A stretch of DNA of 64,000 bases from Sulfolobus islandicus Y.N.15.51 (GTDB lineage Archaea > Thermoproteota > Thermoprotei_A > Sulfolobales > Sulfolobaceae), in the NCBI RefSeq assembly GCF_000022485.1, contig NC_012623.1, positions 1,178,001-1,242,000 of the forward strand. Direction: 5' to 3'. Of this stretch, positions 50,823 to 53,883 are shown piece after piece. Position 1 is the stretch's first letter. Every line of letters begins with the position of its first letter. Under the pieces are notes generated by a model. The model did not search any database, was not told the DNA's origin, and saw only the letters and a program-made list of their open reading frames with translations. The translations under genes were made by a program, and so were the position numbers.

Positions 50823-51618
50823 GGTAGTGTCGTCGTTAAGTTATTTATATTTGTATAACGAGTATTACTTATGGGTAGGAAGCCTGTATTTAGGCAAGAC
50901 GTTTCTTGTCCCTCTTGTGGTAGTCATCATGTTGTTAAGTGTGGTAGGCCTTTGGGTAGGCAGAAGTTTTTGTGTAGGGATTGTGGTAAGTACTTCTTGG
51001 GTGATGCTAGTTATCATCATCATTCTAGGAAGTTGAGGGAGGAGGCTTTGAGAATGTATGCTAATGGTATGAGTATGAGGGCTATTTCTAGGGTGCTTAA
51101 CGTACCTCTTGGTACTGTTTTCACTTGGATTAAGCGTTATGGTAGGAAAAAGCATGAGAAGTTGGTTGAGTTGTGGGGTAGGGCTAAGGAGCTGGTCAAG
51201 GGTAAGGTTGTTGCTAAGGTTGTTGATGAGATGTGGACTTACTTGTACAAGAATGCTAGGGCTTTTTACAAGTGGGTTTTCACTTGTTACGTGTACACGA
51301 AGCTGGGAGTTTACCTCATTTACTCTGTGGGGGATAGGGATGAGAGTACTTTCCTTGAGGTCAAAAAGTATTTGCCTGACGAGGGTAGATGGGTGAGCGA
51401 TGATTATAACTTGTACTTCTGGTTGAAAGACCACACGGTTGTCTCGCCAGTTAACCCGAACGAGCCCTTTCATTCCTCATTAAGGGATAGGCTAATTAGA
51501 TTCAAGAGAGCAACGAAGGCAGTAAATAGGAGCATTCGCACCATGATGTACTCCATAGCCCTAGTCTTATGGGAGAGAAGGTTAATCCCAGAATTTGTAG
51601 CTTAACGACGACACTATC
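50823..51618 (+). mobile_element. ISC796: ISC796 (IS1 family), copy 2
   Basis: 796 bp exactly between the two copies of the 9-bp duplication AAGTAGGAG (50814-50822 and 51619-51627). Ends are ggtagtgtcgtcgttaa at the left and its near-complement at the right. Length, family and duplication size all agree with ISC796 (name from recall). Insertion looks fairly recent. Confidence 0.95.
50871..51605 (+). CDS. IS1-family transposase (copy 2)
   Basis: The 244-residue transposase is the same type as that at 11191-11919, two residues longer (YHHHSRK instead of YHSKK). It has the zinc ribbon CPSCGSHHVVKC with CRDC, the helix-turn-helix and the DDE core (VVDEMWTYLYK, YSVGDRDESTF). The two copies differ in many positions, so they are not products of a very recent duplication. 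Confidence 0.94.
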   Translation: MGRKPVFRQDVSCPSCGSHHVVKCGRPLGRQKFLCRDCGKYFLGDASYHHHSRKLREEALRMYANGMSMRAISRVLNVPLGTVFTWIKRYGRKKHEKLVELWGRAKELVKGKVVAKVVDEMWTYLYKNARAFYKWVFTCYVYTKLGVYLIYSVGDRDESTFLEVKKYLPDEGRWVSDDYNLYFWLKDHTVVSPVNPNEPFHSSLRDRLIRFKRATKAVNRSIRTMMYSIALVLWERRLIPEFVA

Positions 51619-51749: not shown

Positions 51750-52992
51750 TCAAGTTAACAATTTTGGTGCGTATTTCTCATAAATTTCTCTAAGTTCTTC
51801 TTCCGAAAAAGGCAAATAATGTTCTTGTAGTATTTGGAATTGCCCTGGACTAGTTCTACCTTGAAGGATGTTTACAATCATCGGGCTTACGCCTTGCTTA
51901 ATCATATAACTTGCCCAGAAGGCCCTCAAATCGTATATTCTGAATACTTTTCCTGCTTTTTGCATAGTAGTTTTGATTTCGGCCCTTATCTTATCTTCAT
52001 TCATGGGGAAGAATTTCATCTTCCATTTTTTCAACATCTTGTCCTATTGTCCTTACCCCGCCCCAAAATCTTCTTATGTAAGACTCCCTATACTGTAGGT
52101 AATTCTTCTCGATCCATTCTGCAGTCTCTTTATGAAGAAAAGTTATGTAGGCCCGCTTCGTTTCGTTTGTTTTCATCAGTTTTATCACTCTATGCTTCAA
52201 GTCAACTTGGTCAACTGTTAGACGAAATAATTCTCCAGTTCTTAACCCAGTCTCTGTGGCTAATAAAAAATAGGTCTTAGCTCCTAATCCTTGAATATTG
52301 TTAAATATCGATTTTAATACGTCGAGAGAAAGTATACTCGGCTTGTATTTGGTTTTAGGTTGAGGTATTGAAAATGAATAGTAAAGTATTTGCGCAAGTA
52401 TGGGGTCTTTGCTTCTCACTATTTCTTTTATAAATAATTTGAGCACTATAGCCATCTTCCTAGCTCTATGCATACTCTCCTCTTCCTGTTCCAGTAAGTA
52501 ATCCTTAATCTTCTCAAGTGAAATTACATAATTATTATCTTTGAGAACTCTATTCAAATATCTCCAGTGGTCATCGAATGTATGTTTTGCTTTATTCTTT
52601 TCCAACAGTTTTTTGAATGTTTGTAGATCTTCTGAAGTCACGGGGTAAGAATAAGAAGCTGCTTTGATAAACTCCCCTAAACTCCTTTGCAGTAATGATA
52701 AGAAAAGCTCCCGGAACTCCGGATCCTTAGTAGCTTTTACTATTACACCTATTGCCTCATTGATCCCTATTTTTGATGTATCGACCCCAGCGGTTAGTTG
52801 TAAAAGCTCATCTGGTGTTAAGTACTCTGCAGCTCTTTGAGCTACGTAATCTGGAATTTTCCTATTCTTATTCTTATACCTCCACCATGTTACCCTGTCT
52901 ATTCCTAATTCTTCATACGAAATGCCCTTTTCCAGAACGGCTTTTACAATTTTTATCTTCTGGTCCTCTGTTAAACTGGAAACGTCTATCAT
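51750..52992 (-). pseudogene. int: Tyrosine integrase, one-base frameshift
   Basis: The integrase catalyses recombination at the tRNA-Phe site. The N-terminal part (52992-51997) has a helix-turn-helix (SYEELGIDRVTWWRY), a core-binding domain, and the first catalytic arginine in TETGLRTGELFRL with lysine in LMKTNETKRAYI. The C-terminal part (52037-51750) is in another frame and has IYDLRAFWASYM, LQGRTSPGQF and the tyrosine in LQEHYLPF. One C too many in CCCC at about 52010, or a slip at the A6 run near 52025, would join both frames. It lies directly beside tRNA-Phe. Confidence 0.85.
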
Positions 52993-53036: not shown

Positions 53037-53125
53037 TTCGTTTCCAAAAACTTCCTCAGGCGTTTCCAACCATTCTCTACATAAGAACGTAGAATTCTTT
53101 CAATTTAAGGAAAGAATAAGGGAGG

Positions 53126-53199
53126 TGCCGCCGCGGGGACTTGAACCCCGGACAACCCGGTCTTCAGCCGGGCGCTCTCCCGGGCTGAGCTACGGCGGC
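53126..53199 (-). tRNA. tRNA-Phe (GAA)
   Basis: 74 nt without intron. Acceptor GCCGCCG pairs with CGGCGGC; discriminator A. The D arm is GCTC/GAGC. Anticodon stem CCCGG/CCGGG closes the loop CTGAAGA, giving GAA. The T arm is CGGGG TTCAAGT CCCCG. Its 3' half is repeated at 45521-45552, so this gene is the integration site of the element. Confidence 0.96.
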
Positions 53200-53250
53200 A
53201 TTATAATAATATAGATATGACTTTTTAACTTTTATTGTCATTACTTCTAA

Positions 53251-53340
53251 CGGGGATCTGGCGACACCCTTGGAGAACCCTAAATATTTAGGGGTGCGAT
53301 GAATTAGGGTCTCCAGGGATCCCCACAGTAGGTGACAGAA
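53251..53340 (+). ncRNA. Structured leader RNA upstream of archaemetzincin
   Basis: A T-rich A-box at 53222-53229 puts the transcript start near 53251. The RNA opens with GGGGATC (53252-53258), which pairs with GATCCCC (53318-53324), and has a long inner stem of GGAG-A-ACCCTAA (53272-53283) with TTAGGGTCTCC (53304-53314). A competing hairpin CCCTAA-ATAT-TTAGGG (53278-53293) uses the same CCCTAA. A ribosome site GGTGA (53331-53335) and ATG 53341 follow. It may be a regulatory leader or a separate small RNA. Confidence 0.55.
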
Positions 53341-53883
53341 ATGAAGATTTTAATAGTTACCTTAACTTACATTGAAAAATCAATAATAGATGAAATTGTT
53401 AATAATCTTTCAAGCTATGGACTAGAAGTTGATATATTGTTCGATAGTAGAAAATATCTTCCTATTTCTGCTTTTAATTGGGAAAGATTACAATACGACG
53501 CGGAAAAAGTATTAAGCTTCCTTAAATCTAAATATGACTTTAATTACGATTCCATAATATTCCTCGCAGATTCTGACGGTTATATCGATGGTTATAACTT
53601 TGTATTTGGATTAACTATAGATAATTTTGCCATTATTTTTCTTAATAGATTAAGGGAAGAGTTCTATAATAGAAAACCAGACCTAGAATTGTTTATGAAA
53701 AGAGTAGTAAAGGAAGTAACTCACGAGGCAGGTCATATATTAGGACTAGGCCATTGTAATACAATAGGTTGCGTCATGAATTTCAGCAATACAGTGGAAG
53801 ATGTGGATAAAAAACAAGCGAGATTCTGTAAAAATTGTATATATAAAATAGAAAACCTATCTAAATATCTACAACGAAAGTGA
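53341..53883 (+). CDS. amzA: Archaemetzincin (AmzA) zinc peptidase
   Basis: The 180-residue protein has the archaemetzincin motif HEAGHILGLGHC, followed by GCVMNFSN (the methionine turn) and the C-terminal cysteine pair FCKNC, exactly the H-E-x2-H-x2-G-x3-C-x4-M plus C-x2-C arrangement of the family. It is a zinc peptidase of unknown substrate. GTG 53332 is also in frame, but the GGTGA ribosome site (53331-53335) selects ATG 53341. The 3' end overlaps archease by 23 nt. Confidence 0.92.
   Translation: MKILIVTLTYIEKSIIDEIVNNLSSYGLEVDILFDSRKYLPISAFNWERLQYDAEKVLSFLKSKYDFNYDSIIFLADSDGYIDGYNFVFGLTIDNFAIIFLNRLREEFYNRKPDLELFMKRVVKEVTHEAGHILGLGHCNTIGCVMNFSNTVEDVDKKQARFCKNCIYKIENLSKYLQRK

Follow-up and report, generated by a model that had tools for sequence, protein, structure and literature searches.

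A conserved hairpin RNA upstream of an archaemetzincin gene in Sulfolobus islandicus is a probable box H/ACA guide with two candidate rRNA targets

INTRODUCTION

Productive archaeal H/ACA guide RNAs have the so-called "10/5/9" geometry (PMC4652768). Among the Sulfolobales, whose H/ACA guides are poorly catalogued, the Sso1 H/ACA sRNA is described as guiding the formation of pseudouridine 35 of tRNA-Tyr (Muller et al. 2009, as cited in PMC4652768). Small RNAs may also lie within the leaders of protein-coding genes, and 11 sRNAs were found inside 5′ UTRs in Thermococcus kodakarensis, from which they are presumably released by processing (PMC4247193).

We analyzed a 64,000-nucleotide stretch of the S. 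islandicus Y.N.15.51 genome, hereafter the window, in which an earlier note had described a structured leader RNA with two mutually exclusive stems before the archaemetzincin gene amzA. We conclude with high confidence that positions 53252 to 53327 encode a pseudouridylation guide RNA of the archaeal box H/ACA type, i.e., a single-hairpin sRNA gene with a putative promoter of its own and predicted targets in rRNA.

RESULTS

The RNA has the anatomy of an archaeal box H/ACA guide

The RNA can be divided into the following elements.

53252..53259, + strand: H/ACA lower stem, 5′ strand GGGGATCT; covaries with 53317-53324
53260..53265, + strand: left (5′) guide strand GGCGAC of the pseudouridylation pocket; invariant in the family alignment, pairs with the 16S and 23S candidate targets
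53266..53272, + strand: upper (GA) stem, 5′ strand ACCCTTG; partner strand at 53303-53310, with two positions showing double changes
53273..53274, + strand: non-bulged strand of the kink-turn, GA; scored by rule, GA is present in 31 of 32 homologs
53275..53297, + strand: apical stem-loop including the CCCTAA/TTAGGG hairpin; stem kept, sequence variable
53298..53302, + strand: bulged strand of the kink-turn, bulge GAT followed by GA; NNU-GA in 31 of 32 homologs
53303..53310, + strand: upper (GA) stem, 3′ strand ATTAGGGT; together with GA, 10 layers on the 3′ strand in nearly all homologs
53311..53316, + strand: right (3′) guide strand CTCCAG; invariant in the alignment, six pairs with 16S UUGGAG beside the U966 equivalent
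53317..53324, + strand: H/ACA lower stem, 3′ strand GGATCCCC; covariation
53325..53327, + strand: ACA box; invariant in 21 aligned family loci, NCA in distant homologs

Three structural features that define archaeal box H/ACA sRNAs are present: a lower stem lies below the pocket, the ACA box follows directly 3′ of that stem at 14 nt from the pocket, and a kink-turn is found about ten layers up. The ten-layer upper stem and the kink-turn (NNU-GA opposite GA) occur together in 31 of 32 homologs, and the GCGAC of the left guide strand is invariant in distant families too. A Cbf5-type gene was found in the genome. We rejected a box C/D sRNA, as neither the sequence nor the alignment contains C (RUGAUGA) or D (CUGA) boxes at the ends. 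In a search with the Rfam covariance models, no H/ACA family scored above its gathering threshold, and the single match, to SCARNA7 with an E value of 0.86, was meaningless; the RNA thus lies outside the listed families, which does not exclude it from the H/ACA class. It is a guide RNA absent from Rfam, well supported as a member of the H/ACA class and amenable to a testable target prediction, and it very probably guides pseudouridine formation in rRNA.

The lower stem covaries, but the proposed alternative stem does not

The computed folding energy by itself appears only mildly unusual, with the 95-nt leader folding at -31.1 kcal/mol against a mean of -26.0 for shuffled sequences (z = -1.76; 6 of 200 shuffles as good). 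The alignments were decisive. The outer stem described in the earlier note, GGGGATC (53252-53258) with GATCCCC (53318-53324), was confirmed as a conserved element with strong covariation. In the family alignment, 94.5% of its cells are paired, including 30 with double changes, and none of 500 shuffles scored as high on most measures. The wider homolog set yielded 93.4% pairing and 50 double-change cells, again with 0 of 500 shuffles as high on most measures, in an alignment that was itself fitted to the covariance model. Compensation is apparent in combinations such as GGGGATC/GATCCCC, GGGGACC/GGTCCCC, GGGGCCC/GGGCCCC and GGGGCTT/AAGCCCC, and the covariation of the lower and upper stems combined exceeded that of all shuffles on most measures.

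In contrast, the compensatory changes that were expected for the 11-bp inner stem are missing. It is 72% paired and has zero double changes, and 500 of 500 shuffles were as good. The complementarities CCCTAA/TTAGGG and CCTTGGAGA/TCTCCAGG both exist in the window, as had been noted, but the latter breaks in relatives; to judge from the aligned sequences, the mutually exclusive stems are a property of this single sequence rather than a conserved feature. The alignment shows an invariant 3′ strand of the inner stem, AGGGUCUCCAG, opposite a drifting 5′ strand, which argues that the 3′ strand is fixed by an outside partner and not by a switch. The CCC/GGG hairpin recurs in homologs as the apical stem above the kink-turn.

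These results bear on the proposal that amzA is controlled in cis by a leader switch, a riboswitch or thermosensor whose 11-bp stem and local hairpin would alternate and so uncover or occlude the ribosome site. Either stem can form in the S. islandicus sequence, the minimum free energy fold includes the inner stem, and the GGTGA motif is close behind the element. However, that same predicted fold leaves GGTGA unsequestered, the alternative stem is unconserved, being broken in many relatives with one strand invariant, and the RNA persists where no amzA follows. Furthermore, the invariant bases correspond to guide strands and not to a ligand core. We consider such a switch very improbable.

The guide RNA has a promoter-like box and is conserved across the family

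Two features precede the guide RNA.

53124..53199, - strand: tRNA-Phe(GAA); lies divergently next to the guide RNA in the family homologs that were inspected
53216..53235, + strand: putative promoter region of the BRE/TATA type, with its centre about 26 nt upstream of the first base of the stem

An AT-rich box of the TTTTTAA type is conserved around positions -31 to -23 in 27 loci. The presence of a TATA-like box belonging to the RNA itself, together with the divergent tRNA-Phe gene, supports an independent RNA gene. The possibility of an independent small RNA, which the earlier note had offered as an alternative, is supported by this box, by the homologs without amzA downstream and by the complete H/ACA anatomy.

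Inspection by eye of the minus strand downstream of tRNA-Phe (51750-52992) revealed a tyrosine-recombinase-like integrase that appears to be split into two overlapping frames of 331 and 95 aa, which suggests a decayed integrated element at the 3′ end of the tRNA gene. An ORF of the IS-transposase type (50871-51605), also recognized by eye, adjoins the split integrase.

By DNA search, 25 genomes from the window's family were found to carry the element. With the covariance model, it was detected in 30 of 31 family genomes and in members of two further families within the order; the single family genome without it is 71% complete. Homologs in the two other families are more diverged, and in the distant ones the lower stem is shorter and UCA replaces ACA. 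In the homologs of family f8 (L110-L113, L146, L148-L155, L157-L158), the 3′ end CUCCCGGCCUUCA is almost invariant, also in sequences whose lower stem differs on its 5′ side, a conservation that reaches beyond the lower stem.

Two rRNA uridines are candidate targets

We ranked all uridines (about 900) in the rRNA operons of relatives, from five family genomes and an f8 genome, by stacking energy, with the register of the pocket set from the upper stem. With permitted pocket offsets that were chosen after the sites had been seen, the uridine equivalent to E. coli 16S U966 ranked 1, 1, 1, 2 and 1 in the five family genomes, and the equivalent of 23S U2457 (E. coli numbering) ranked 3, 2, 2, 3 and 3. 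In the f8 genome the 23S uridine ranked first, with a left duplex of 9 bp. Shuffled guide strands placed the 16S site at rank 1 in 0.1 to 0.2% of trials and the 23S site within rank 3 in 1 to 2%; for rank 1 of the 23S site in f8 the value was 0.1%. The 16S uridine is the one set off by hyphens in UUGGAG-U-C-AACGCC, a part of helix 31, and the 23S uridine is that in ACAGGG-U-C-GUCGC; the 3′ part of the 23S gene of the window's genome contains the ACAGGGUCGUCGC site.

The hypermodified nucleoside m1acp3-pseudouridine derives from a pseudouridine. In S. solfataricus it occupies the tip of helix 31, at position 930 of 16S rRNA (PMC11698992). We take this position as equivalent to E. coli 966, since the spacing between 930 and C1364, 434 nt, matches that between 966 and 1400 in E. 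coli. Position 2457 of E. coli 23S rRNA is a pseudouridine. The 23S pseudouridines of archaea, including S. acidocaldarius, are located in the peptidyl transferase center and helix 69 (PMC7991803), and our literature search found no exact list of 23S pseudouridines for the group to which the window belongs.

The predicted duplexes are flawed. That with 16S rRNA has two mismatches between the left duplex and the pocket, and the right duplex with 23S rRNA is just 3 bp long. Pairing with 16S rRNA is weaker in the distant families. In one genome (G016, locus L078), helix 31 has UUGGAGUCAACACC instead of CAACGCC, so that CGCC is replaced by CACC and the predicted left duplex is broken, with an unchanged guide. 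In view of both flaws and of this partial loss of the 16S match, the target assignment is likely but less than certain: 16S U966 and 23S U2457, the latter with its strong left duplex, are the most likely targets as predicted by base pairing. We favor a double-target guide, in which GAC would be needed for 23S and CUCC for 16S rRNA. Matches to tRNAs were out of register and were discarded, and a two-site use of 16S GGAGACC and GUCGCCAG was dropped since no uridine would sit in the pocket.

Might the H/ACA guide mainly target something else, whether a tRNA, an mRNA or a different RNA, or act as a chaperone of rRNA folding? The ideal target GGAG-U-N-GUCGCC is missing from the rRNA examined and both actual duplexes are imperfect, in line with such a role; moreover, some archaeal sRNAs are known to lack recognizable targets, and roles as chaperones have been suggested (PMC3608112). 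On the other hand, neither tRNAs nor the rest of the rRNA offered a better conserved match, the relatives' genomes contained no conserved match to the ideal pattern, and the two rRNA sites are top-ranked well beyond what shuffled guides achieve. We regard another main function as possible but rather unlikely.

The guide RNA probably doubles as the leader of amzA

Downstream of the guide RNA, the window contains the following features.

53331..53335, + strand: Shine-Dalgarno-like GGTGA of amzA, read in the sequence
53341..53883, + strand: amzA, archaemetzincin (Peptidase M54) of 180 aa with an intact HEAGHILGLGHC; PF07998, E value 7.6e-59

GGTGA is complementary to the 3′ end of archaeal 16S rRNA. 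This ribosome site ahead of the ATG at 53341 is present as had been reported, and amzA has no obvious promoter of its own in the window. Given this site and the lack of another obvious promoter, amzA is most simply read as co-transcribed with the guide RNA, which likely doubles as the 5′ leader of the amzA mRNA in the window's genus.

The downstream gene varies among relatives. In 10 of 30 loci the RNA is followed by an archaemetzincin whose active site is intact, and amzA is intact in some genera only. At other loci the start codon abuts or overlaps the ACA box, and the gene product is an M54 relative that has diverged and lacks HExxHxxGxxH; this proximity indicates that the guide RNA and the mRNA probably share a transcript. 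The ORF right after the ACA box is such a relative in L008, L011, L014, L018, L021 and L091. These proteins match PF07998 at 1e-9 to 6e-5, with no Pfam match in genus g10. No M54 motif was found within 1.1 kb downstream of the RNA in the genera g4, g6 and g9, and some loci have a T-rich stretch after ACA instead. Protein-based searching of the genome contigs contributed no amzA relatives. As far as the sequences indicate, the enzyme appears to have decayed repeatedly, with conserved synteny beside the guide RNA in several genera.

A shared transcript raises the question of whether L7Ae also represses amzA through the kink-turn of the leader, as it does for the l7ae mRNA, making the RNA both a guide and a regulatory leader. 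The kink-turn is canonical, L7Ae represses several S. acidocaldarius mRNAs via kink-turns (PMC5539422), and the start codon touches the ACA box in several genera. However, the ribosome site is located 3′ of the hairpin and outside the kink-turn, which does not mask it: GGTGA at 53331 is nearly 30 nt 3′ of the kink-turn GA (53301-53302). Several genera, in addition, keep the RNA without amzA or without its active site. We deem this regulation improbable.

DISCUSSION

We propose that the guide RNA transcript would start near position 53250. Its kink-turn would recruit L7Ae and its ACA box Cbf5, and the internal pocket would open. GGCGAC and CUCCAG would then pair with rRNA on both sides of a uridine, which Cbf5 would isomerize. 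In the window's genus, transcription probably runs on into amzA, to be translated from GGTGA, so that the guide would form the 5′ part of a longer transcript, from which processing might release it.

More speculatively, and somewhat doubtfully, this could be a dual-function transcript in which H/ACA assembly excludes translation of amzA, while one pocket serves two central rRNA positions, one per subunit. The ACA box that is needed for particle assembly would sit beside the start codon of amzA, touching it in some genera. If so, the capacity for ribosome modification would be mechanically coupled to the expression of archaemetzincin or of its catalytically dead descendants.

In the papers covered by our literature search, the hypermodified P-site pseudouridine at 16S position 930 had no guide assigned to it. 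The locus provides a directly testable candidate guide for this position, together with another candidate site close to the peptidyl transferase center, and represents a guide RNA kept against the start codon of a protein-coding gene over several genera.

With the "10/5/9" class, which comprises the Pyrococcus abyssi set and Archaeoglobus Afu46, the RNA shares the lower stem, a pocket of 6 and 5 nt, the ten-layer GA stem, the kink-turn and the ACA box 14 nt from the pocket; in contrast to that class, it matches no Rfam family and its targets are predicted. Sso1, as far as its description in the citing paper goes, belongs to the same RNA class and order and has the same reported fold type; the window RNA differs in that its guide strands match no tRNA in the proper register. 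The H/ACA-like sR201 to sR210 of Pyrobaculum have a shortened lower stem and NCA for ACA, as do the f8 homologs, whereas the window RNA has a full lower stem and ACA. Finally, the T. kodakarensis 5′-UTR sRNAs resemble the window in that a guide RNA is located in the leader of a protein-coding gene, but the arrangement described here recurs over several genera, with start codons that touch the ACA box.
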